From contig NZ_BCRT01000013.1 in the NCBI RefSeq assembly GCF_001552735.1, positions 124,001 to 188,000 of the forward strand: a stretch of 64,000 nucleotides of DNA. The letters run 5' to 3'. The notes beneath the pieces were generated by a model. It was not told the DNA's origin. It saw nothing but the letters and a program-made list of their open reading frames with translations, and searched no databases. This stretch comes from Sanguibacter suarezii NBRC 16159 (GTDB lineage Bacteria > Actinomycetota > Actinomycetes > Actinomycetales > Cellulomonadaceae). This document shows positions 3,538-35,466 of this stretch, piece by piece. The position numbers and the translations under genes are program-made. The stretch's first letter is position 1, and every line of letters begins with the position of its first letter.

Positions 3538-5409
3538 ATGCAGACTCTCAGCCAGACTCGGAGAATGCCTCACGACGACTCCCATGCCACCCCGATCGCC
3601 GACTACGCCGTCCTGGGCGACGGTTTCTCCTGTGCGCTGGTCAGCCGCCACGGCTCTGTGGACTGGCTCTGCCTGCCCGACTTCGACTCCCCCGCCTGCT
3701 TCGCCGCCCTGCTCGGCACACCCGACAACGGACGATGGCTGCTCACCGTGCCCGACGCGCACACCGTGACCCGCAGCTACCGCGGCGACTCCTTCGTCCT
3801 GGAGACGACGTACACCTCTGCGACCGGACGCGCCCGCGTCGTCGACGTCATGCCCGCCGGCGACGGCCGGGCGGACCTCGTCCGCGAGATCACCGTGCTC
3901 GAGGGCACGGTGACGATCGAGCACGAGTGGGTGGTGCGGTTCGGCTACGGCGCCTACGAGCCGTGGGTGCACCGGATCGAGGACGACCACGCCAGCGGCC
4001 GCCACGCCATCCTGGCGATCTCCGGACCGGACGCGATCCTGCTGCGCGGCACCCGGCTCCCCCACGCCAGCGACCACCGCCACCACGACCGCTTCCAGGC
4101 GAGCGCGGGCGAGACCCTGACCTTCTCCTCGACATGGACCCCGTCCTGGGCCCCCACCCCGGAACCGCTGTCGGTGCCCGACCGGATCGCCGAGACTGCC
4201 GGGCTGTGGCACGACTGGGCGCGACGCTCGGACTACCGCGGCCCCCACCGCGAAGCCCTGGTCCGGTCGCTGCTCGTCCTGCGCCTGCTCACCAGCGTCA
4301 AGACCGGCGGCATCGTCGCCGCGGCCACCACCTCCCTGCCCGAGGAGATGGGCGGGGAACGCAACTGGGACTACCGCTTCTGCTGGCTCCGCGACGCGGC
4401 CATGACCCTCGAGGCGCTCCTGGAGTCCGGGTACCACGACGAGACCACCCAGTGGCGTGACTGGCTGCTGCGCGCCGTGGCCGGGAACCCCGACGACCTG
4501 CAGATCATGTACGGGATCGACGGGCGACGCGACCTCCCCGAGAGCGAGCTGGACCACCTGCCCGGATACGCGGGCTCGCGCCCGGTGCGGATCGGCAACG
4601 CGGCCGTCAACCAGGTGCAGAACGACGTGCTCGGCGAGGTCATGCTCGCCCTCGACATGGCACGTGACGCGGGACTGCATGACTCCGTGGACTCCTGGTC
4701 GCTGCAGCGCCACCTCGTCCAGGCCCTCATCTCCCACTGGGACCGGCCCGACCGTGGCATCTGGGAGGTCCGCGGACCCGAACGGGACTTTGTGCACTCC
4801 CGGGTGATGAGCTGGGTCGCCATCGACCGGGCGATCCGCGCCGTCGAGGTCCACGGGCTGCCAGGACCCGTCGAGGCCTGGAAGCAGGTCCGCGGCGAGA
4901 TCCACGCCCAGGTGATGGAGCGCGGCTGGAACGAGGAGCTCGGGTCCTTCGTCCAGTACTACGGCGCCGGCCACACCGACGCCTCGCTGCTGCAGATGGC
5001 CCAGGTCGGCTTCCTCGACGCCACCGACCCGCGGTTCCTGGGGACCGTGGCCGCCATCCGCGCCACCCTCATGGACGACGCCGGGTTCACCAGGCGGTAC
5101 GAGACCGAGCACACCGCGGACGGTCTGGCCGGCGACGAGTCGCCGTTCCTCGTCTGCTCCTTCTGGATGGTCGACGCCCTGGCGCGATCCGGCGACGTCG
5201 ACGCCGCGAGCGACATGCTCGACCGGCTGGTCGCCTCCGCCAACGACCTCGGCCTCATGGCCGAACAGTTCGACGCCCAGGCGGACCGGATGACCGGTAA
5301 CTTCCCCCAGGCCTTCTCCCACCTCGGCCTCGTGCGCGCGGTGCACAGCCTCGACCGTGCGGTCGCGGCCCGGGAGGCGTCCCTCGTCCCGTGCGAGGTG
5401 GGCTCATGA
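3538..5409 (+). CDS. Glycoside hydrolase family 15 protein (glucoamylase/trehalase-like)
   Basis: The 623-residue protein has the typical actinobacterial GH15 layout. An N-terminal beta-sandwich starts with [18 protein letters not shown] and [14 protein letters not shown], and is followed by an (alpha/alpha)6 barrel with the conserved [12 protein letters not shown] segment. Family members hydrolyse alpha-glucosidic bonds, as glucoamylases or as acidic trehalases; the substrate cannot be fixed from sequence. No signal peptide is seen, so it is probably cytoplasmic. The ATG at 3538 was chosen. The ATG at 3565 (MPHDDSH), preceded by GGAG at close spacing, is a realistic alternative. The stop overlaps the start of the next gene in an ATGA, suggesting translational coupling. 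Confidence 0.9.
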
Positions 5410-6134
5410 CCTCCGACAAGCCCACCTCGGCCGCGGCACCGGACTACGACGGTCACGTCGTGGCAGGCGGCCCGACGGCGCTGCGCCGGCTCGACGACGT
5501 CGACATCCGCAAGGCGCAGGTCGGCCCGATGGGCAACAACGCCTACCTGCTCACGTGCCGGCGCACCGGTCATCAGGTGCTCATCGACGCCGCGGCGGAC
5601 TCCGACCGGCTGCTCGACCTCGTCCGCGAGGGCTCCTCGTCGAGCGCGCTGGACCTCATCATCACGACCCACCACCATCGGGACCACCACGGCGCCCTGG
5701 AAGATCTCGTCGCGGTGACCGGCGCGCACACCGCCGCCGGCGCCCCGGACGCCGACGCCATCGGGGTGCCCATCAAGCATCGCCTGCTCCCCGGTGAGAC
5801 TCTCGCCGTGGGATCCATCACCCTCGAGGTCATCGCGCTGCGCGGGCACACCCCCGGCTCGGTCGCCCTGCTGCTCACCGAGCCCGAGCAGGTGCACGAG
5901 CCCGGAGCAGTGGCCGGGCGAGCGCACCTGTTCACCGGCGACTCCCTCTTCCCCGGCGGCCTGGGCAACACCGAGCACGACCGGGCGCGGTTCGACCAGC
6001 TCTTCGAGGACGTCACGACGCAGGTCTTCGACCGCCTGCCCGACGACACGTGGGTGTACCCGGGGCACGGAGACGACACGACGCTGGGAGCCGAGCGCCC
6101 GCACCTGGACAGCTGGCAGGCGCGCGGCTGGTGA
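5406..6134 (+). CDS. MBL-fold metallo-hydrolase (glyoxalase II-like)
   Basis: The 242-residue protein carries the metallo-beta-lactamase signature THHHRDHHGAL (HxHxDH), then GHTPGSVAL, GDSLFPGG and YPGHGDDT, which supply the remaining metal-ligand histidines and aspartates. It most resembles glyoxalase II-like hydrolases that cleave thioesters or similar esters with a binuclear metal site. Residues 1-45 are a short extra N-terminus before the fold. The ATG at 5406 overlaps the GH15 stop by 4 bases, so the two are probably co-translated. The substrate is not known. Confidence 0.88.
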   Translation: MTSDKPTSAAAPDYDGHVVAGGPTALRRLDDVDIRKAQVGPMGNNAYLLTCRRTGHQVLIDAAADSDRLLDLVREGSSSSALDLIITTHHHRDHHGALEDLVAVTGAHTAAGAPDADAIGVPIKHRLLPGETLAVGSITLEVIALRGHTPGSVALLLTEPEQVHEPGAVAGRAHLFTGDSLFPGGLGNTEHDRARFDQLFEDVTTQVFDRLPDDTWVYPGHGDDTTLGAERPHLDSWQARGW

Positions 6135-6177
6135 CACACGAGATCGACGCCCCAGGGGCGCGTGCTTCAATGGCGCC

Positions 6178-6462
6178 ATGACCACTTACGCCGTGACCTA
6201 CGTCTACGACTCCCGCTCCGCCGAGCGCGACACCCACCGCCCCGCGCACCGCGGCTTCCTCGGCGGGCTGTACGCCGCAGGCGTGCTGCTCGCCTCGGGA
6301 CCGGTCTCCGACGGCGACATGCACGGCGCGCTGCTCATCGTCGAGGCCGACTCCCCCGAGAAGGTCGCGACGATCCTCGACACCGACCCGTTTGCGGTCA
6401 ACGGGCTCGTCGCCGACCGCGCGATCACCGAGTGGACTGTCGTCTTCGGTCCCTGGGCCTAG
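6178..6462 (+). CDS. YciI-family protein
   Basis: This 94-residue protein matches the YciI (dimeric alpha/beta barrel) family. It has an initial MTTYAVTYVYD strand, a conserved His in the RPAHRGFLGGL segment, GPVSDGDMHGALLI, and the DPFAVNGLV segment carrying the conserved Asp-Pro. Family members are small and poorly characterised, and some act as dehydrochlorinases. The TAG stop lies in a CTAG shared with the convergent kinase gene, so no terminator fits between them. Confidence 0.85.
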   Translation: MTTYAVTYVYDSRSAERDTHRPAHRGFLGGLYAAGVLLASGPVSDGDMHGALLIVEADSPEKVATILDTDPFAVNGLVADRAITEWTVVFGPWA

Positions 6463-7457
6463 GTCTGCAGAGCACCTGACGCGCGCTCGGGAAGCAGCGC
6501 CAGCCAGTCGCGCGGCCCCACCACAGAGCACCGCAGCGCGGCGACCGCCGCCGCCTGGGCGAGCTGGTCGGCGAAGGTCGCCGGTCCTCGCACGCTGGCG
6601 TAGGTGAAGGCACCATGGAAGGCGTCCCCGGCTCCCAGGGTGTCGACGGCCTCGACCGCCGGTACGTCGACCTCCCCGGACGTCTCGTCCGTCCACCAGG
6701 TCACAGCGCCGGCGCCGTGGGTCACTGCCCATCGCGTGGCCCGCTCTGTGTAGCGGTGTGTGGCCCGTTGCACGCCGGCGTCTGTCGTCCCAGCCATCGC
6801 CTCAGGCGTCGTCGGCACGGCCGAGGTCGACGGCGCGGCTGGCACTGCGCCGTCCGCGAGCCGGAAGTCCGCCGAGGCGATGACGGTGCTGGCGCGGGCG
6901 AGCAGCTCGGTCATGACCGGCTTCCATCGACCGGCGTCGATGATGACGGGGATGCCCGCCTGCTGGGCGGCAGCAGCGAGGGAGGTCGCCACCCGCGGGT
7001 GGTGGCCATCGAGCAGCATCACCTCACACCCCTCGACCAGAGCCGCAGGATCCTGCGGCGCAGGCAGGTCGACGGCGGCCGCGTCCATGGACAGCACCGA
7101 GCGGCTGCCGGTGCGGACATCGACACGGATCGCTGAGATGCCCAGGTCGAGGTCGGTTCCCTGAGCCAGGTCGACCACCTCGACTCCGTGCGCGGTCAGG
7201 TCCGCCCGAGCGATCGACGCCGCAGGCCCGTCGCCCAAGGCCGTGATCAGCCGCGCTCGCCCGCCCAGGGCCGCAAAGACCACCGCAGCGTTGGCCGCGG
7301 GTCCGCCGGCGGCCAGGTCCTGGCGCTCTGCCGTCATCTTCTCGTCCGGTCCTGGCGCCCGCCGCGCCCGGTGGATGACATCGAGGGTGGTCAGGCCGAC
7401 GAACACGCCCAGCGGGCCTGCGTCGCCAGCATGGTCGGGGGCGACCGGCGCGCTCAC
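6459..7457 (-). CDS. PfkB-family carbohydrate kinase
   Basis: The 332-residue protein belongs to the ribokinase/PfkB superfamily, which phosphorylates sugars or nucleosides with ATP. It shows [18 protein letters not shown] near residue 50, the first signature, and the C-terminal [13 protein letters not shown] segment, which contains the anion hole and catalytic Asp. The GTG start at 7457 overlaps the uvrB stop in GTGA, so it is translated from the uvrB mRNA. Its substrate cannot be told; the link with uvrB is an arrangement rather than a known functional partnership. Confidence 0.88.
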
Positions 7458-26931: not shown

Positions 26932-27699
26932 ATGATGGGTGCGCACCACGCGATCTCAGGCTCAGCAGCCTGGGTCGCGGTCGCCGGCACGGGTCCGCTC
27001 ATGCTCGGCCTCTACCCTGCCTCCGACTCCGGCATCCTCATCGGGGCCGTCGTCTGCGCCGGCGCCGCCCTGTTGCCCGACGCCGACCACCACAACGGCA
27101 CCATCGCCTCCTCCCTGCCCCCGCTGTCCACCGTGGTCACCCGAGCAGTGGCTCGGGTGAGCGGCGGGCACCGCAACGGCACCCATGGGTTGCTGGCCAT
27201 CCCCCTCGCCGTCCTGCTCGCCGTCGGAGCCGGGCTCATCGGGCTGGAGACCGAGGCCTTCGGCCGGGTGGCCCTCGGTGCGGGGGTGCTCTCGCTGCTG
27301 CTCGTCGCCTACGCCGCGAAGGCCCTGAGGATCACCAATGACGGCAGCTGGGTGCGCTCGTGGGGCCTCGCGCTCATCATCTCGACTCTGGTGACCCTCT
27401 ACGCGCCGCAGGAGTGGGAGTGGCTGCCGCTCGCCGTCGGGCTCGGCGTGGCGGTGCACATCGCCGGTGACATGCTCACCACGGGTGGGGTCCCGCTGCT
27501 GTGGCCGCTGCGGATGCGCCCACCGCGCTGGTGGCGCCGGACGCCCGTCCTCAACGACGTGTGGCTGTCCAGCGGACGCCTCTCGCTACCCGTCCTGGGA
27601 GACACCGGATCGATCCGGGAATGGGCCTTGGCTGTGCCCCTGACCGTCTACACCGTCTATGGGTGCCTGGGCGCCGTCGCGGGCCTCCTCCAGTCCTGA
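26932..27699 (+). CDS. YdjM-like membrane-bound metal-dependent hydrolase (DUF457)
   Basis: The 255-residue membrane protein shows the DUF457/YdjM pattern: an N-terminal GAHHAISG, LLPDADHHNGTI, GHRNGTHGLLA, and HIAGDMLTTGGVPLLWPL. These provide several His and Asp residues suited to metal binding, spread between about six membrane segments. Family members are called membrane-bound metal-dependent hydrolases, but few have been tested; YdjM of E. coli is SOS-linked. Two tandem ATG codons (26932 and 26935) are possible starts. It stands alone, with 101 bases before the next gene. Confidence 0.82.
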   Translation: MMGAHHAISGSAAWVAVAGTGPLMLGLYPASDSGILIGAVVCAGAALLPDADHHNGTIASSLPPLSTVVTRAVARVSGGHRNGTHGLLAIPLAVLLAVGAGLIGLETEAFGRVALGAGVLSLLLVAYAAKALRITNDGSWVRSWGLALIISTLVTLYAPQEWEWLPLAVGLGVAVHIAGDMLTTGGVPLLWPLRMRPPRWWRRTPVLNDVWLSSGRLSLPVLGDTGSIREWALAVPLTVYTVYGCLGAVAGLLQS

Positions 27700-27800: not shown

Positions 27801-28706
27801 ATGAGCGCTCCGGTGCAGGATACGCGGACGATCGTCGTGACGGGAGCCGCTGGTCCCGCAGGACGGGCCCTCGGTGCGCAGTTCTCCCGTCACCCCGGAG
27901 CTGGCACCCTTCACGTCGTCGGCGTGGACCTCGCCCCCGCTCCTGTCCCAGGCTTCGAGACCGTCGAGGCCGTCCCGGCGGCGACCGATCCCGCCTACGA
28001 GCGGGCGACCATCGACCTTCTCTCCCGGCACCGACCCGACCTGCTCCTACCGACGGTGTCCGAGGAGCTCCCGCGCCTCGCCGTCCTCGCACACGCCGTG
28101 GGGCTGGGGAGCACCGTCGTCCTCTCGGCGCCAGGTCCGACCGCGGTCGCCGGGGACAAGCTCCTCACCATGTGGGACCTGGCCCGGCACGGCGTCGCTG
28201 TGCCGCGGCACATGGCGAGCACGGACGTCCGCTCCGCCTCCGCCGCTCTTGACTGGGCGGGAGGCCAGCCGATCGTCGTCAAGCCGCGCACGTCACGCGG
28301 CGGACGGGGTGTCCACGTCGTCGAGGACCCGCAAGACCTCGTGTGGGACCGGTTGGACGGGTCCTGGATCGTCCAAGAGTTCGCTCCCGGCGACGAGTAC
28401 AGCCCGCAGGTCTACCGCTCCCCCACCTCCGGCCGGTGCGTCGTCGTGGTCCTCCAGAAGACAAGGCTCGAGCGCGGACGGGTAGGCAATGCGACCGCGG
28501 TCGAACGAGTGGAGGGGGCAGACGACGTCGCCGCGCTGGCGACGCAGGCTGTCGAGGCACTGGACCTCGTCGGCCCGCTGGACGTCGACGTGCGGCGACT
28601 CGTCGATGGCACGCCGGTCATCCTCGAGATCAACGCACGCTTCGGTGCGGTCTCGGCTGCTGCACCCGAGCTGCTCGAGGCGGTCCTCGCCGACTGGCCA
28701 GGCTGA
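27801..28706 (+). CDS. ATP-grasp ligase
   Basis: The 301-residue protein has a Rossmann-like N-terminus (TIVVTGAAGPAGRALGAQF) that resembles the pre-ATP-grasp domain. An ATP-grasp core follows, with PIVVKPRTSRGGRGV (nucleotide-binding loop), WIVQEFAPGDEYSPQVY, and VILEINARFGAVSA carrying the metal-binding Glu-x-Asn. It is closest in style to carbamoyl-phosphate synthetase and D-Ala ligase-like enzymes that form amide bonds through acyl phosphates. The glycosyltransferase starts two bases after its stop, so the two are coupled. The substrate is unknown; ligation of an acyl or amino acid to a sugar precursor is inferred from context. Confidence 0.82.
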   Translation: MSAPVQDTRTIVVTGAAGPAGRALGAQFSRHPGAGTLHVVGVDLAPAPVPGFETVEAVPAATDPAYERATIDLLSRHRPDLLLPTVSEELPRLAVLAHAVGLGSTVVLSAPGPTAVAGDKLLTMWDLARHGVAVPRHMASTDVRSASAALDWAGGQPIVVKPRTSRGGRGVHVVEDPQDLVWDRLDGSWIVQEFAPGDEYSPQVYRSPTSGRCVVVVLQKTRLERGRVGNATAVERVEGADDVAALATQAVEALDLVGPLDVDVRRLVDGTPVILEINARFGAVSAAAPELLEAVLADWPG

Positions 28707-28708
28707 CG

Positions 28709-29989
28709 GTGACAGCCGTCTTCACGTCGCTGCTGTTCGTGCTCGGCGTCACGGTGCTGGTCGCCGGGTTCGTGCGACTCCTCCTCGTCCCCTTCGCCCT
28801 CGTGTTCGAGCTGCGTGAGCGGCGTGCTCGACCAGGCCCGGCAGGGTGCGGTCCCTCGTTCGCCGCTGCTCCACAGGTGAGCGTCGTCGTCCCTGCCTAC
28901 AACGAGGCGGTCGTCGTCGAGAACTGCGTGCGCTCGATCCTGCGCAGCGACCACCCGCGCCTCGAGGTCGTGTGCGTCGACGACGGGTCCTCAGACGGCA
29001 CCTTCGACGTCCTGGCGCGCCTTGCGGGCAAGGATCCGCGGGTGACGGCCCTCCGCCAGGAGAACTCCGGCAAGGGCGCCGCGCTCAACCGGGGGATCGC
29101 CCATGCACGCGGAGAGATCATCCTTCTCGTCGACGCCGACGGGCTCTTCCGGCGTGACACCATCACCCACCTGCTGCGGGGATTCCGGGACTCCCGCGTC
29201 GGTGCCGTCTGCGGGAACGACCGTCCCGTCAACCTCGATCGTGTGCTGCCCCGCCTGCTCTGCCTCATCAGCCACCTGGGAACCGGCCTCATGCGCCGCG
29301 CCCTCGACGTGCTCGGCTGCCTCCCGGTGGTCTCTGGCAACGTCGGAGCCTTCCGGCGCGAGGTCCTCGATGCGGCCGGGCCGCTGCGCACCGACACCCT
29401 CGGCGAGGACCTGGAGCTGACGTGGCGGATCCACCGCGAGCGGTACGCGGTCACCTTCGCCCCCGACGCGCTCGTCTATGCCGAGTCGCCGTCGACCGTC
29501 CGCGGCCTGTGGCGCCAGCGTGTGCGGTGGGCCCGCGGTCTGCTGCAGGTCACCGGGATCCACCTGCGGATGGTCGGCAACCCTCGGTACGGAGCGTTCG
29601 GCCTCTACCTCCTGTACAACTCGTTCAGCCAGATCGTCGTGCCCTTCCTGCAGGTGCTCGCTGCCATCACGCTCGCCGTCCTCGCCGGCGTCGACGGCGT
29701 AGCGTGGTTGCCGGACGACTGGTGGTCCTGGGTCCTCTTCGTGGGGTTGCCGGTCTCGGTGGGGCTCCTGCTGCTCTCGATCCTGCTCGACCGGGCACCG
29801 GGGGATCTGCGTCATGTCTGGACCGTCCCGCTGTGGCCCGTGTACTCCACCCTCATGACCTTCGTCATGCTCGACGCCGCCAGGCTCGAGCTCCAGAACG
29901 CGGAGGAACGATGGAACAAGCTCGACCGCAGCGGGACAGTGTCCGTGGCGGGTCTCCTCGACGACGACGATGGCCGTGGGTCGTCATGA
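28709..29989 (+). CDS. Membrane family 2 glycosyltransferase (processive type)
   Basis: The 426-residue protein begins with one membrane helix, then a cytoplasmic GT2 domain. The domain has SVVVPAYNE, VDDGSSDGT, LLVDADG (the DxD metal site), the acceptor-side TLGEDLELTWRI (ED) and QRVRWARG (a QxxRW-type motif). Two or more membrane helices close the protein. This layout matches processive synthases of the cellulose, hyaluronan and poly-N-acetylglucosamine (PgaC/IcaA) group, which polymerise a sugar and move it across the membrane. The GTG at 28709 starts two bases after the ATP-grasp stop. Its 3' end overlaps the next gene by 79 bases. Confidence 0.88.
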   Translation: MTAVFTSLLFVLGVTVLVAGFVRLLLVPFALVFELRERRARPGPAGCGPSFAAAPQVSVVVPAYNEAVVVENCVRSILRSDHPRLEVVCVDDGSSDGTFDVLARLAGKDPRVTALRQENSGKGAALNRGIAHARGEIILLVDADGLFRRDTITHLLRGFRDSRVGAVCGNDRPVNLDRVLPRLLCLISHLGTGLMRRALDVLGCLPVVSGNVGAFRREVLDAAGPLRTDTLGEDLELTWRIHRERYAVTFAPDALVYAESPSTVRGLWRQRVRWARGLLQVTGIHLRMVGNPRYGAFGLYLLYNSFSQIVVPFLQVLAAITLAVLAGVDGVAWLPDDWWSWVLFVGLPVSVGLLLLSILLDRAPGDLRHVWTVPLWPVYSTLMTFVMLDAARLELQNAEERWNKLDRSGTVSVAGLLDDDDGRGSS

Positions 29990-31134
29990 TTCTCGCCCCG
30001 CTGGTCGCCGCTGCGCTGGTCGCTCTTCTCCTCGCCCGCCCGTGGGAGGACGTCCCGCCTCTCCTCGGACCGGTGGACCCACCGGAGCACATACGATCGC
30101 TGAGCATCGACTTCGGCATCGTGACCGACCCAGCGACTGACTGGAGCGTCGTCAACGACCGGCTGGACGAGGTGGCTGCCACGTCCGTCGACCTCAATGC
30201 GGGCCGGGTGGAGTTCACCGGGTTCGACTGGGAGGCGTACCCCGATGCCGCCGCTGAGCCGGGCAGGGATCACATCGCCAGGGCCGCGCGCGCCCTGCGC
30301 ACGATGGCCGACGGGTCACCGCGCCAGATCGGTCTTGTGGTGGACGCCTACGTCCCGGAGTGGATCCGGCAGGATCCCTCGGTCGCCGGCAAGGACGCCG
30401 CCGGACAGCCCGGCCCCTACCAGCCGTCCGCCACCGCGCTCACCGACGGCCCCGTCGGGCAACGGCTCGTCGAGTACGTAGCAGCCCTCGGCGAACGCTA
30501 CGGCCCGAGCCAGATCACGATCACTGAGCTCTTCCTCGACCGGTACAGCTATGGCGACGACGATCTCGCGCTGTACCGGGAGATGACCGGAGCCACCGAC
30601 TGGCCGCGTGGCGCCGACGGGCAGATCGACGAAGGGGCACCAGAGCTCGGTACCTGGCGGTCCGAGGTGCTGGCCAGCCTCCTGGCGCGCATGCGGACAG
30701 CACTTGACGAGGTCCGGGACGGTGAAGGCAAGCAGATCGAGCTCGCGATGGACGTCCGCGTCAACTGGGCCGACCTGGCGAGCGGCGACGCGTCCAGCGG
30801 CCATGACTTCGAGATCCTGCTCCGGTCCGTCGACCGGTTGGTCGTGTGGGCCTACATCGGTGTCCTCCAACGGTCGGTCGACGAGGTCGGTGCCCTCACA
30901 GCAGCCCTCGCCGCGAGCGACATCGACTCGGACCGCATCACCGTCTCGGTCGGCCTCTGGGGCCCCGACGGAGTCCAGCCGATCCCGGTCGAGACGATGG
31001 CCGAGGCGGTCACCCTTGCAGGGACCAACGGGATCAGGGCCGTCCATGTCACGCCGTACTCGCTCATGTCGGAGCCGTACTGGACGGCGCTGGCAGGAAT
31101 CTGGGTGCCGCAGGCGGAGGCTGAAGGCGACTAG
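29911..31134 (+). CDS. Membrane-anchored TIM-barrel glycoside hydrolase-like protein
   Basis: This 407-residue protein has an Arg-rich cytoplasmic head, a single helix at about residues 25-42 and a large outside domain. Regular strands such as IGLVVDAYVPEW, ITITELFLDRYSYGDDD, IELAMDVRVNW, LVVWAYIGV and RAVHVTPYS suggest a TIM barrel, with acidic residues in ITELFLDRY and AMDVR as possible catalytic groups. It recalls the hydrolase domain of PgaB that acts on poly-GlcNAc, but the match is by layout only. The ATG at 29911 has GGAGGA upstream and lies inside the glycosyltransferase gene; an ATG at 29986 would lack the head. The stop shares CTAG with the sensor kinase gene. Confidence 0.7.
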   Translation: MEQARPQRDSVRGGSPRRRRWPWVVMILAPLVAAALVALLLARPWEDVPPLLGPVDPPEHIRSLSIDFGIVTDPATDWSVVNDRLDEVAATSVDLNAGRVEFTGFDWEAYPDAAAEPGRDHIARAARALRTMADGSPRQIGLVVDAYVPEWIRQDPSVAGKDAAGQPGPYQPSATALTDGPVGQRLVEYVAALGERYGPSQITITELFLDRYSYGDDDLALYREMTGATDWPRGADGQIDEGAPELGTWRSEVLASLLARMRTALDEVRDGEGKQIELAMDVRVNWADLASGDASSGHDFEILLRSVDRLVVWAYIGVLQRSVDEVGALTAALAASDIDSDRITVSVGLWGPDGVQPIPVETMAEAVTLAGTNGIRAVHVTPYSLMSEPYWTALAGIWVPQAEAEGD

Positions 31135-32819
31135 CTCGCTGCGTCGGGACGCGCCTCCCCCGATCGCGGGAGATCCGGGAGCAGCACGTCGACCTGGGTA
31201 CCGACGCCGGGCTCGCTGCTCAGTGTCATCGTGCCGCCGTGCGTGTCGACGATTCTCTGGACGAGGGACAGCCCGAGCCCGACGCCTCGCACCCGGAGCT
31301 GCCGGGTGGCCCGCGTGCGGTAGAAGCGTTCCGTGACGTGCTCCAGCTCGTCGGCAGCGATGCCCCTGCCCTCGTCGCTCACGCGGATGTGCGCCCGCCG
31401 TGCCCCGCTCACGTCAGCCTCCGCGGTCACGGTAACCTGCACGTGCCCTCCCCGAGAGCTGTACTTCACCGCGTTGCTCACGAGGTTGTCGACCACCTGG
31501 GCCAGGCGCTGCGCGTCGGAGACGAGCGGCACCGTCACATCGCCGTCGACGAGGACGCTGACCCCTGCGGCCTCGGCTGCCGGCCGCTGGCTCTCGACGA
31601 TCCCTTGGACCACCGTCACCACATCCACGTCCTCCGGCCTCAGCAGGTCCGCGCCAGCAGCCATCTGGGCACTGGTGAGCAGGTCGTCCACGAGCGTCTG
31701 GAGCCTGTGCGCGCTGCGCTCCACGACATCGAGGTACCTCTGCTGCTCGGCGTCGAGCCTGCCTTCCTCCAGACGGAGGAGGTCGACGTATCCGAGGATC
31801 GACGCGAGCGGGGTGCGCAGCTCATGGCTGACGAGGCCGATGAACTCGTCCTGTGCATTCTGTTCCTCGTGGCGCCCCGTGACGTCCGTGGCGACGAAGA
31901 GATAGCCCGGGGGCAGCTCCGGGGCGGTCCCGGCGAGCGGAGGCCGCGGCGTCACGACGATCTCCAGATACCGGCGTGTCCCGTCCGGCAGCAGCACGTC
32001 CCACTCTCCCACCTCTGTCCCTCCGTCCGCGGCCTCCCCCAGGAGGAGCCGCCCGACCGACCCCGTGCCCCCTTCGACCTGGTCGGCGGCGACGAGCTCT
32101 GTGACAGGGCGACCGAGGAGATCCGCCGCGGAGCGGCCGAAGACCTTCTCCGCACCGGTGTTGACCGAGACGATCACGCCCTGCGCGTCCGTCGCGAGGA
32201 AGCCCTGCTCGGTGGCCGAGGCCAGGATGCTCGCGAGGGTGTCCCGGGAGTCTCGGACCTCTTGGGCGGCGACGGCGAGGGCGTCCCGCGCAGCGGCGAG
32301 CTGCTTGGCCTGACCGACGGCCATGTCGACGACCAGGTGCACGCCCACGACGAGCGGCGCGATGATGAGGAACGTGACACAGGCGCGAAGCACGGCGTAC
32401 TCACGGCCGATGTCGACGACCACCGGGACGAGGAGGATGAAGGCGAATCCCACGAGCGAGAGGACCACTGCTGACCGACCCGGACGGACCGCGAGGCTCA
32501 CGACGGGGAGGAGGGCCAGTGTGTCAAAGTTCGGGCTCGCCGTCCCGGTGCCCACGTCGAGAAGCGCCACAGCCACCATCTGCACGAGCGGGAGAGCCTT
32601 CCGCCAATCCGCAGGCCAGCGGGACCAGTCGCCCAGAAGACCGAAGACCATCACGGAGACGGACAGCGCGGCAGCCAGCATGACGATCGCCGGGTGAGCG
32701 GGCTTGAACGCGACACTCACGAGCACGGCGCACACCACGATCCCTACCGTGGCGGGGACTTCCCTCCTGCCGACCGCGTCGTCCTCGAACCACCACGTCC
32801 AGCGCACCGGCACGACCAT
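31131..32819 (-). CDS. Membrane sensor histidine kinase with PAS domain
   Basis: The 562-residue protein has about six membrane helices in residues 20-165 with only short loops, so it probably senses an in-membrane or cytoplasmic signal. A coiled linker and a PAS domain follow (about 195-320, GFLATDAQGVIVSVN). Then come HisKA with the phospho-His in VSHELRTPLASI and a HATPase domain with DNLVSNAVKYS and VSDEGRGIA. The ATG at 32819 overlaps the response regulator stop by one base (TGATG), so the two are co-translated. The end meets the hydrolase-like gene at a shared CTAG. Confidence 0.92.
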   Translation of the reverse strand: MVVPVRWTWWFEDDAVGRREVPATVGIVVCAVLVSVAFKPAHPAIVMLAAALSVSVMVFGLLGDWSRWPADWRKALPLVQMVAVALLDVGTGTASPNFDTLALLPVVSLAVRPGRSAVVLSLVGFAFILLVPVVVDIGREYAVLRACVTFLIIAPLVVGVHLVVDMAVGQAKQLAAARDALAVAAQEVRDSRDTLASILASATEQGFLATDAQGVIVSVNTGAEKVFGRSAADLLGRPVTELVAADQVEGGTGSVGRLLLGEAADGGTEVGEWDVLLPDGTRRYLEIVVTPRPPLAGTAPELPPGYLFVATDVTGRHEEQNAQDEFIGLVSHELRTPLASILGYVDLLRLEEGRLDAEQQRYLDVVERSAHRLQTLVDDLLTSAQMAAGADLLRPEDVDVVTVVQGIVESQRPAAEAAGVSVLVDGDVTVPLVSDAQRLAQVVDNLVSNAVKYSSRGGHVQVTVTAEADVSGARRAHIRVSDEGRGIAADELEHVTERFYRTRATRQLRVRGVGLGLSLVQRIVDTHGGTMTLSSEPGVGTQVDVLLPDLPRSGEARPDAAS

Positions 32820-33892
32820 CAGGTCGCCCCGTGGTCCGCGTCTGCCCCCTGCCCGTCCACCGCGGGTGCAGCTGTCACCGACGAGCCGGCGACCGCCACC
32901 GTCTCGCTCGCGCGCACGGTCTCGAGCGGTTCGACCTCACGGGCCGGGCTGAAGCGCGCCCAGTAGCGGGCCGTGGCACGCACCACGTCGGGCTGCATGT
33001 ACTCGCGATGCGCCTGGGAGACATAGGCCGCGAGCATCTCGAGCTTGGTGTCGATGAAGCCGTCGATGTCGACAAAGCGGTTGGGCGCGAAGGCGACTGT
33101 CGCCGACGGGCTCTGGAAGCACCACACGTTCTTGACCTGCCGTGCCGCCACCTCCACCGCCTCGTGCACCGCACGATGGTCCTGGTGGCGGTCGTGGGCG
33201 CTGTGGGTGTAGATCCTGTCCGGCTGCATCTCGAACACCACCTCCTCGATCGCCGTGATGAGACCCGCGGCCGGGTCGAGGCGGGTGTCGGGGAAGTCGA
33301 GATGGATGAGCCGCGCACCGACCACGGACGCAGCCGCCGCCGCCTCGGAACGCCGCGCCGACGTGCTCCCGCCCACGGCCCCACCGGAGAGCGTGAGGAT
33401 GACGAGCTCATCACCGGCTGCGGCGTGCGCGGCCAGCGTCCCACCCGCAGCGATCTCGACATCGTCTGGGTGGGCACCGACCGCGAGGACCCGTTGGCGA
33501 GACTCCGTGCGAACGGCGCGGGCCCGCTGAGCGAGCTCGGTGGCCCGCTGCACGAGCACCGCGGTCGTGACGGGCTTGATGAGAAACTCGTCCGCAGCGC
33601 TGCGGAGGGCATCGATCGCGTGATCGACGGTCGGGTAGGCGGTGACGATCATGATCGGCAGGGTCGGGTCGAGGGCACGCACCTCAGGGATGATCTGCAG
33701 GCCGGAGGCCCCCGGGAGCTGGATGTCGCTGACGAGCACGTCGTAGGTGCTCCTGCCCAGTGCAGCAAGCGCCTCCTCGGCTGAGGCCGCGACGTCGACG
33801 CTCATCCCACCGTGACGTTCAAGTGCGATCCGCATGAATTCGGCTGCGTCGGCGTCGTCCTCCAGAACGAGCGCCCTGAACGTCTCGGCCAC
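32819..33892 (-). CDS. Response regulator fused to PIG-L/LmbE-type zinc deacetylase
   Basis: The 357-residue protein joins a receiver domain (residues 6-120: acidic EDD at 11-13, phosphoacceptor Asp 56 in DVLVSDIQLPG, Lys 106 in FLIKPV) to a PIG-L/LmbE domain. The latter has AHPDDVE at 140-146, supplying His 141 and Asp 144 as zinc ligands, and HSAHDRHQDH at 230-239, supplying further His. Proven members (MshB, PIG-L) remove acetyl from GlcNAc-type sugars. No DNA-binding domain is present, so phosphorylation probably controls the enzyme directly. The GTG at 33892 has GGAGG six bases upstream. It is the first gene of a two-gene operon with the sensor kinase. Confidence 0.9.
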   Translation of the reverse strand: MAETFRALVLEDDADAAEFMRIALERHGGMSVDVAASAEEALAALGRSTYDVLVSDIQLPGASGLQIIPEVRALDPTLPIMIVTAYPTVDHAIDALRSAADEFLIKPVTTAVLVQRATELAQRARAVRTESRQRVLAVGAHPDDVEIAAGGTLAAHAAAGDELVILTLSGGAVGGSTSARRSEAAAAASVVGARLIHLDFPDTRLDPAAGLITAIEEVVFEMQPDRIYTHSAHDRHQDHRAVHEAVEVAARQVKNVWCFQSPSATVAFAPNRFVDIDGFIDTKLEMLAAYVSQAHREYMQPDVVRATARYWARFSPAREVEPLETVRASETVAVAGSSVTAAPAVDGQGADADHGAT

Positions 33893-34047: not shown

Positions 34048-35466
34048 TCAGACCTCGTCGCCGATGCGGTGAACGAGGATCGAGTTGGTCGTGCCCGAGA
34101 CGCCGACCGGTGCGCCGGAGACGACGACGACGAGGTCGCCGACCTCGGCGAGGCCGTTGGCCTGCAGGGTCGTGTCGACCTGGCGGACCATCGCGTCGGT
34201 GCTGTCGACCGAGGGAACCTCGTAGGACTGGGTGCCCCAGGTCAGCGACAGGACGTTGCGGACGTCCTGGCGGGGGGTGAAGGCCAGCAGCGGCAGAGCC
34301 GAGCGCAGGCGAGACATCCGGCGAGCCGAGTCACCGGACTGGGTGAAGGTCACGAGGTACTTGACGCCGAGGATCTCACCGATCTCGGCAGCGGCACGCG
34401 TGATCGCGCCACCGCGGGTGTGCGGGGTCGAGCCGAGCGGGGCGATCCGCTCGCGGCCGAGCTCCTCGGTGCTCTCGATGATGCGAGCCATGACGCGCAC
34501 GGCCTCGATCGGGTAGTCACCGACAGACGTCTCACCGGAGAGCATGACAGCGTCTGCACCGTCGAGGACGGCGTTGGCGCAGTCCGAGGCCTCGGCGCGG
34601 GTCGGGCGGGGAGCGGTGATCATGGACTCGAGGACCTGGGTGGCCACGATGACCGGCTTGGCGGCGCGGCGAGCGAGCTCGATCGCGCGCTTCTGCACGA
34701 GGGGGACCTGCTCGAGGGGCAGCTCGACACCGAGGTCGCCACGGGCGACCATGATGCCGTCGAAGGCGTCGACGATCTCGACGAGGTTCTCGACAGCCTG
34801 CGGCTTCTCGATCTTGGCGATGACGGGAAGGACGCGGCCTTCCTCTTCCATGATGCGACGAACGTCGTCGTAGTCGGCCGCGCTGCGCACGAACGACAGG
34901 GCGATGATGTCCGCGCCCAGGCGCAGGGCCCAGCGGAGGTCAGACTCGTCCTTGTCGGACATGGCCGGCACGGAGACGGCGACGCCGGGGAGGTTGAGTC
35001 CCTTGTTGTTGGAGACGGGGCCAGAGACCTCGACGCGGGTGACGACGCGGGGGCCTTCGACCGCGGTGACGCGGACGAGCACGCGGCCGTCGTCGATGAG
35101 GATCGGGTCGCCGACGCGGGCGTCGTTCGGCAGGCCCTTGTGCGTGGTGGAGACGAGCTCCTTGGTGCCCACGACGTCTTCGGTGGTGATGGTGAAGGTG
35201 TCACCGACGTTGAGCCACTGCTTCTCGTCGTTGGCGAAACGTCCCAGACGGATCTTGGGGCCCTGCAGGTCGACGAGCACGGCGACGGAACGGCCAGAGG
35301 CCTTCGCGGCGGCGCGCACGTTGTGGTAGACGGCTTCGTGCTCTTCGGGCTCCCCGTGGCTACGGTTGATCCGGGCGACGTCCATTCCGGCGTCGACCAG
35401 GTTCTGCAGCTGCTCGAGGGAGGCGGTTACGGGTCCGATGGTGCAAACGATCTTTGCTCTGCGCAT
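34048..35466 (-). CDS. pyk: Pyruvate kinase
   Basis: Pyruvate kinase converts phosphoenolpyruvate and ADP to pyruvate and ATP. The 472-residue product has MRRAKIVCTIGP at the N-terminus, active-site INRSHGEPEEH, the catalytic Lys in VIAKIEKPQAV, metal-site Glu and Asp around [11 protein letters not shown], and SGETSVGDYP. A C-terminal regulatory domain follows. A -10-like TAGGCT lies exactly six bases before the ATG at 35466, which suggests a leaderless mRNA; the intervening GGAG would be too close for a ribosome site. It lies downstream of gltBD on the same strand. Confidence 0.96.
   Translation of the reverse strand: MRRAKIVCTIGPVTASLEQLQNLVDAGMDVARINRSHGEPEEHEAVYHNVRAAAKASGRSVAVLVDLQGPKIRLGRFANDEKQWLNVGDTFTITTEDVVGTKELVSTTHKGLPNDARVGDPILIDDGRVLVRVTAVEGPRVVTRVEVSGPVSNNKGLNLPGVAVSVPAMSDKDESDLRWALRLGADIIALSFVRSAADYDDVRRIMEEEGRVLPVIAKIEKPQAVENLVEIVDAFDGIMVARGDLGVELPLEQVPLVQKRAIELARRAAKPVIVATQVLESMITAPRPTRAEASDCANAVLDGADAVMLSGETSVGDYPIEAVRVMARIIESTEELGRERIAPLGSTPHTRGGAITRAAAEIGEILGVKYLVTFTQSGDSARRMSRLRSALPLLAFTPRQDVRNVLSLTWGTQSYEVPSVDSTDAMVRQVDTTLQANGLAEVGDLVVVVSGAPVGVSGTTNSILVHRIGDEV

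Follow-up and report, generated by a model that had tools for sequence, protein, structure and literature searches.

A five-gene locus at positions 27801 to 33892 of the window (i.e., the whole 64,000-nucleotide stretch analyzed here, positions 124,001 to 188,000 of contig NZ_BCRT01000013.1 of Sanguibacter suarezii NBRC 16159) is real and forms one unit. It encodes an ATP-grasp ligase, a membrane glycosyltransferase of family 2 (GT2), an anchored protein with a predicted barrel fold, a sensor histidine kinase, and a response-regulator receiver domain fused to a PIG-L/LmbE-type de-N-acetylase. Judged from sequence comparisons, the set belongs to a wider receiver-PIG-L/ATP-grasp/GT2 module and is one of its variants, because the barrel gene is nearly absent outside the family and is absent from sister genomes. 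The module itself was found in both Actinomycetota and Pseudomonadota. On balance, we lean toward a locus for the synthesis and modification of a secreted amino-sugar polymer, with two-component control that acts on an enzyme rather than on transcription.

The fusion protein carries the signatures of both of its parts. Pfam assigned residues 8 to 116 to Response_reg (2.4e-23) and residues 136 to 249 to PIG-L (4.6e-26); the latter match (PF02585) scored 92.3 bits against a cutoff of 28.2, with the AHPDD/HxDH metal site intact. The window protein was aligned with 37 of the 41 listed fusion genes (L095, L103, L110, and L128 were left out); another alignment of the analysis comprised 28 selected rows. 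Among these 38 sequences, receiver residue D56 was conserved in 37, T/S84 in 37 (Thr in the window), and K106 in 35, and PIG-L residues H141, D143, D144, and H239 were conserved in all 38. The receiver-PIG-L fusion proposed in the original prediction is thus borne out by intact receiver and deacetylase signature residues. A structure model of the fusion (predicted local distance difference test [pLDDT] score, 91.9; predicted template modeling [pTM] score, 0.80) had BC1534, BshB, and TT1542 as its nearest solved folds in Foldseek, and PleD and PorX also appeared.

A hydrophobicity scan flagged neither a signal nor a membrane segment in the window fusion protein, whereas of six receiver-less PIG-L relatives checked, five have two or three membrane segments before the PIG-L domain. 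The receiver thus appears to occupy the position where other PIG-L proteins carry a membrane anchor. This placement would also suit a receiver that merely tethers or localizes the enzyme, or a fusion that serves as a signal sink or regulator, with catalysis unaffected by phosphorylation, as would the lack of a receiver score in some rows of the fusion clade. We consider such a role improbable: the acceptor Asp, the Thr/Ser, and the Lys are kept in at least 35 of the 38 rows, and 61 of 71 loci have a kinase within 7 kb. The kinase of the window has a hydrophobic N terminus and four hydrophobic segments, followed by PAS, HisKA, and HATPase_c domains. We infer from its proximity that it may be the phospho-donor of the fused receiver. 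A large hybrid kinase with PAS, HisKA, HATPase_c, and two receiver stretches is encoded on the opposite strand near the receiver-PIG-L gene in L088 (positions 4371 to 7244), and similar large-kinase matches were seen in L016, L062, L065, and L067.

The PIG-L part of the fusion matched 83 places in 75 of the 221 genomes of the family. Forty-four of these neighborhoods (43 fetched plus the window) were read, chosen by the PIG-L match alone, and genes in the 43 were called by tblastn with the window proteins (E value, 1e-8). All five genes were present in convergent layout in 17 of the 43 fetched neighborhoods (18 of 44 with the window). Co-directional receiver-PIG-L, ATP-grasp, GT2, and kinase genes were found in 13, the same arrangement without the kinase in 3, and that without the GT2 in 1. 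The rest had PIG-L and kinase only (4), a PIG-L match alone (3), or a receiver-less PIG-L gene with ATP-grasp and GT2 genes (2). The original prediction staked its claim on the five genes not being rare companions in related genomes. Within the family, the set does recur (18 of the 44 loci read); outside the family, the barrel gene was almost absent, being seen in one Arthrobacter relative (L137).

A wider scan extended the module well beyond the family. It yielded named loci, the best 80 of 526 confirmed, from Cellulomonas, Promicromonospora, Blastococcus, Leifsonia, Microbacterium, Thermoleophilia, Legionella, Rhodospirillales, Myxococcales, and others, so the counts that follow favor relatives of the window protein. 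Among 394 genomes sampled from the class, 15 gave a match, which covered receiver and PIG-L in 12 (the own genome included) and the PIG-L part alone in 3. The 79 fusion genes formed 71 clusters at 95%, each represented by one member. Within 7 kb of these 71 fusions, on either strand, we counted ATP-grasp genes in 61 loci, kinases in 61, GT2 genes in 56, PHP-like genes in 35, and barrel genes in 18. The corresponding numbers for 42 receiver-less PIG-L rows were 20 (ATP-grasp), 20 (GT2), and 4 (kinase), and those for the 34 receiver-less rows outside the fusion clade were 14, 14, and 3; flanks were complete for 56 of the 71 fusion loci and 26 of the 42 receiver-less rows and cut short for the others. 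In our reading of these counts, the link between ligase and GT2 is probably older than the receiver, and the kinase comes with the receiver. A chance neighborhood is ruled out by this recurrence together with the empty site described below, an argument that includes no formal chance expectation.

Many co-directional loci (e.g., L059 to L061) have a PHP-like gene (25.7 bits, slightly short of the Pfam cutoff of 26.4) between ligase and GT2. PHP-like and barrel genes never occurred together in the 71 loci, as if they were alternatives. Proteobacterial PIG-L loci (L113, L115, L116, and L123 to L127) have ATP-grasp genes, and most also have GT2 genes. In seven of them (L113, L115, L116, and L123 to L126), we found a protein with an outer-membrane-like aromatic C terminus. 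Its gene adjoins GT2 in six of the seven; in L124, it lies beside the PIG-L gene, and no GT2 was seen. A hydrophobic N terminus was flagged in four of the seven, and Pfam detected TPR in all three that were scanned; such a TPR/outer-membrane-like partner would suit export through an outer membrane. PIG-L relatives were also present in archaea (L138, L142, L151, L152, L157, L159, L162, L164, and L165), with an ATP-grasp gene within 7 kb in L159, L164, and L165.

Phylogenetic trees, most clearly that of the ligase, suggest that the two halves of the locus were combined from separate units. These were quick trees that carried a long-branch warning and used one representative per 95% cluster, and the window ligase was represented by its shortened form of 260 amino acids (aa). 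In the PIG-L domain tree, all 71 fusions and 8 rows not scored as fusions lay on one side of a branch with a support of 99, and all 18 five-gene rows fell in one group of 19 (support, 91). Among the 8 unscored rows of this 79-member clade, contig ends truncate L017 and L134, and L125 and L130 have BLAST matches to the receiver; the others are L066, L083, L123, and L129. In the ligase tree, 17 of the five-gene rows grouped with 6 receiver-less ones (support, 100), apart from 47 other receiver-associated rows, and the GT2 tree placed 18 five-gene rows with 6 receiver-less rows (support, 96). Uniting all receiver-associated ligases in one clade was rejected by the approximately unbiased (AU) test (P = 7e-5). 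The window ligase shares 49% identity with its counterpart in Arthrobacter locus L137 versus 33% with the ligase of a variant 2 locus, and the window kinase is 37% identical to a variant 2 kinase over 518 aa, including part of the membrane region. In L137, a receiver-less PIG-L gene, the ligase, the GT2, and the barrel gene (34% identity over 337 aa) lie co-directionally in a row. We take these data, which are strong for the ligase and moderate otherwise, to suggest that a kinase/receiver-PIG-L pair was joined to a ligase-GT2-barrel unit whose relatives adjoin receiver-less PIG-L genes. In our reading, the combination of two separate units would explain the convergent layout.

The block also has a matching empty site. 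The flanking genes ydjM and pyk are separated by 269, 129, and 146 bases in sister genomes G005, G004, and G002, respectively, versus 6.3 kb holding the five genes in the window. As the two genes are side by side in three of five sisters, the 6.3-kb block was gained or lost whole; in the other two (G001 and G003), ydjM and pyk are at different places. The barrel gene was absent from all five sister genomes. Strong matches to it occurred in 4 of 99 relatives (the own genome included), with E values of 4e-4 to 9e-4 in three more, and the own genome was its sole match among 296 in a phylum sample. Third-position guanine-plus-cytosine (GC) content is 0.83 to 0.89 in the five genes versus 0.90 to 0.94 in four neighbor genes. 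This difference fits a gain of the block, which the sisters may otherwise have lost. The genome contains a second, co-directional locus (L017; G000:C2:36131-46131) with PIG-L, ATP-grasp, PHP-like, and GT2 genes, cut by a contig end; two locus variants therefore coexist in this genome.

The five genes named in the original prediction were all present in the order and orientation it gave, and their coordinates were refined (Table 1). The plus-strand unit runs from ligase through GT2 to barrel gene, and the minus-strand unit runs from receiver-PIG-L to kinase. The stops of the two units overlap, as had been proposed, in a common CTAG at positions 31131 to 31134. A one-base overlap between the receiver-PIG-L stop and the kinase ATG couples the minus-strand unit, and the probable ATG of the barrel gene lies inside the GT2 stop (ATGA overlap). 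A gene caller based on GC at codon positions chose many antisense frames and was replaced by one based on codon usage; the families from the former were used solely to spot the PHP-like gene. The most likely start of the barrel gene is ATG 29986, because the codon-usage caller chose this ATGA start in the window and a matching start in L048. An in-frame ATG at 29911 (407 aa) was rejected, as the additional stretch overlaps the GT2 end in another frame and the caller prefers ATGA. Starts chosen by this caller are not proof, because it also shortened the ATP-grasp gene to a start at 27924 (260 aa), which we did not adopt since the alignment with a relative starts as early as residue 11; in addition, it missed the L054 ligase that tblastn detects.

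Table 1. Genes of the five-gene locus and its flanks (window positions)
Feature	Positions	Strand	Details
ATP-grasp ligase	27801..28706	+	301 aa; Pfam ATP-grasp_3, 1.2e-17
Membrane GT2 glycosyltransferase, PgaC/IcaA-like, QxxRW	28709..29989	+	426 aa; start codon GTG
Barrel protein, N-terminal anchor, putative glycoside hydrolase, PgaB C-terminal-like	29986..31134	+	382 aa; model and Foldseek
Membrane sensor histidine kinase, PAS-HisKA-HATPase_c	31131..32819	-	562 aa; Pfam
Receiver fused to PIG-L/LmbE de-N-acetylase	32819..33892	-	357 aa; Pfam
Left flank, ydjM-like membrane protein (outside locus)	26932..27699	+	Pfam YdjM
Right flank, pyruvate kinase, pyk (outside locus)	34048..35466	-	Pfam PK

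The glycosyltransferase has three strong hydrophobic segments and the motifs VDADG, GED, and QRVRW. The last of these confirms the QxxRW-like motif of the processive-type enzyme that had been predicted, and the predicted PgaC/IcaA kinship finds some support: the protein is nearest to PgaC, with 32% identity to E. coli PgaC over 244 aa. Its best NCBIfam model was PgaC_IcaA (TIGR03937; 195 bits against a cutoff of 422), which was also the best model for the GT2 proteins of two other loci, always below the cutoff. For the ligase, the nearest NCBIfam model was PRK12767 ("carbamoyl phosphate synthase-like"), below its cutoff, and the best solved relative was 2pn1.

Such enzymes might also build a small metabolite, either thiol-like or a signaling conjugate, through the deacetylase and ligase, with GT2 and barrel protein only loosely associated. 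Mycothiol and bacillithiol synthesis proceeds from a glycosyltransferase through a PIG-L deacetylase to a ligase, an order of chemistry that the locus could follow, and the best NCBIfam model for the fusion was BshB1, although at 87.4 bits against a cutoff of 182.5. We nevertheless regard this route as quite unlikely. MshA and BshA are soluble GT4 enzymes, and the glycosyltransferase that accompanies the fusion in 56 of 71 loci is a membrane GT2, not a soluble GT4; the barrel protein, moreover, is probably extracytoplasmic.

This location is suggested by relatives of the barrel protein (L016, L062, and L087), in which a lipobox-like Cys closes the hydrophobic stretch at the N terminus. Pfam gave no match for the window barrel protein and only weak matches to GHL10 in 5 of 18 family members (best E value, 0.0011), and a sequence search for solved structures of the family yielded none that was convincing (best E value, 1). 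The original prediction had named PgaB-type hydrolases as the parallel, and the predicted structure lends this moderate support: for a model built from two sequences (pLDDT, 63; pTM, 0.69), the closest solved folds were PgaB C-terminal domains, with E. coli PgaB at Foldseek ranks 1 to 7 (best E value, 4.6e-10; template modeling score by query, 0.49 to 0.56) and Bordetella PgaB at rank 9. As a sequence check for the GH153/PgaB hydrolase domain, PF14883 exceeded its cutoff nowhere in the own genome. The C-terminal domain of PgaB is reported to cleave deacetylated poly-N-acetylglucosamine, and D474 of Bordetella PgaB is the probable catalytic acid (PMC5933820). In the barrel family, all 18 rows keep E181, which the model places directly after strand 4 and which may be the catalytic acid. 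The model thus provides moderate evidence for a PgaB C-terminal-like hydrolase.

Taken together, these features suggest the following scheme for a secreted amino-sugar polymer. The membrane kinase would sense an envelope or polymer-related signal and phosphorylate the receiver of the fusion, and phosphorylation would switch the cytosolic, metal-dependent de-N-acetylase. The deacetylase could then strip the acetyl group from an N-acetylhexosamine, freeing its amine, in a precursor, a lipid-linked glycan, or a nascent glycan at the membrane. The ATP-grasp ligase might join a carboxylate, e.g., an amino acid, to the freed amine, which is the least certain step. By its family, motifs, and partners, the PgaC-like GT2 would polymerize and export the glycan, and the anchored barrel protein, by its fold, would bind or trim the polymer outside the cell, like the C-terminal domain of PgaB.

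Several observations weigh against this reading. It is difficult to reconcile a deacetylase in the cytosol with a polymer that is exported during synthesis; because the pga deacetylase is periplasmic and no signal or membrane segment was seen here, the order of steps must differ from that of pga. Among solved structures, the GT2 sequence is best matched by 6yv7, a family-2 enzyme that we take to be an archaeal mannosyltransferase of lipid-linked glycans, so polymerization is a putative role of the GT2. In the barrel model, which rests on two sequences, 134 of 382 residues are under a pLDDT of 50; the root mean square deviation from PgaB is 7.3 to 8.0, and a profile comparison (hhalign) of the barrel family with PgaB gave no support (0.3%). 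Eight of the 71 loci (L073, L074, L076, L108, L112, L114, L117, and L122) have a kinase with no ligase or GT2 within 7 kb, and the receiver-PIG-L/kinase pair may therefore serve other pathways. Counting relied on family models that were themselves derived from BLAST hits in these loci. Finally, the AU test rejected neither a single clade of receiver-associated GT2 proteins (P = 0.076) nor a clade uniting the five-gene PIG-L domains with the six receiver-less ones (P = 0.10), and all three groups submitted to it were named after the trees had been seen.

Some of these points would suit a modified glycolipid, to which the GT2 would add one or a few amino sugars, the receiver-PIG-L protein would deacetylate them, and the ligase would add an amino acid, with the kinase tuning membrane charge. 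PIG-L itself removes the acetyl group from N-acetylglucosamine-phosphatidylinositol. The closest folds of the fusion, BshB and chitobiose deacetylases, are enzymes of small sugars; the membrane segments of five of the six receiver-less relatives would place the enzyme at the membrane; 6yv7 is the solved protein that best matches the GT2; and no locus with a PHP-like gene has a barrel gene. A glycolipid product nevertheless seems rather unlikely to us, given a PgaC-like GT2 with QxxRW and a barrel protein with a predicted PgaB-like fold, and a lipid would not need the TPR/outer-membrane-like partner of the proteobacterial loci. We retain the polymer reading and, more tentatively, a broader one: the loci may represent an unnamed, widespread class of systems for secreted glycans, with a cytosolic de-N-acetylase that a histidine kinase switches directly via a fused receiver, so that polymer charge and further acylation change fast without new transcription. 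In this class, the receiver would replace a membrane anchor, and the signaling pair could be combined with different synthase units.

The recurrent combination is genuine, and we found no description of it among the literature matches listed. Nor did we recognize a description of the receiver-PIG-L fusion or the operon among those matches, which leave most subscription papers uncovered. The main text of a review of LmbE proteins (PMC4101496) does not contain "receiver" or "response regulator," and that of a survey of synthase-dependent operons (PMC7112194) does not contain "PIG-L," "LmbE," "ATP-grasp," or "response regulator." If the polymer reading is true, fusing a receiver to a glycan-modifying enzyme would put polymer chemistry under a direct phospho-switch, and a group of PIG-L and ATP-grasp genes so far without a role would gain one. 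Control of exported polysaccharides is known mostly via transcription or cyclic di-GMP. The module is present in two phyla, among them harmless organisms within reach of ordinary laboratories, which makes the proposal testable.

Compared with known systems, the fusion shares its fold and metal-site residues with LmbE/PIG-L deacetylases (BshB, MshB, chitobiose deacetylase, and PIG-L) and differs from them in its N-terminal receiver and its GT2 and ATP-grasp neighbors. The mycothiol and bacillithiol pathways use a soluble GT4 and a cysteine ligase instead of a membrane GT2 and an ATP-grasp ligase. CheB, PleD, and PorX are response regulators with enzymatic outputs; they resemble the fusion in joining a receiver to an enzyme and differ in that the output here is PIG-L, for which no description as a response-regulator output was found among the literature matches listed. 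In a system of response-regulator-activated exopolysaccharide synthesis, a single-domain receiver is paired with a phosphoglycosyl transferase (PMC12802240); judging by its title, that receiver also acts on polysaccharide synthesis by protein contact, whereas the receiver here is fused to a deacetylase. The closest parallels are with pgaABCD/icaADBC: a PgaC-like GT2, a partner with a predicted PgaB C-terminal-like barrel fold, a sugar de-N-acetylase and, in the proteobacterial loci, a TPR/outer-membrane-like partner. In contrast to the periplasmic CE4 deacetylase of pga, the deacetylase here is of the PIG-L type, is fused to a receiver, and has no signal or membrane segment, and the locus adds an ATP-grasp ligase and its own histidine kinase. 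Pfam detected no CE4 polysaccharide deacetylase (the PgaB N terminus or IcaB) among the five genes, to which this search was confined. As the locus has no CE4 deacetylase and its synthase falls below the family cutoff, it is not a pga system; by analogy, what it would work like is a pga-type system with a phospho-switched deacetylase.

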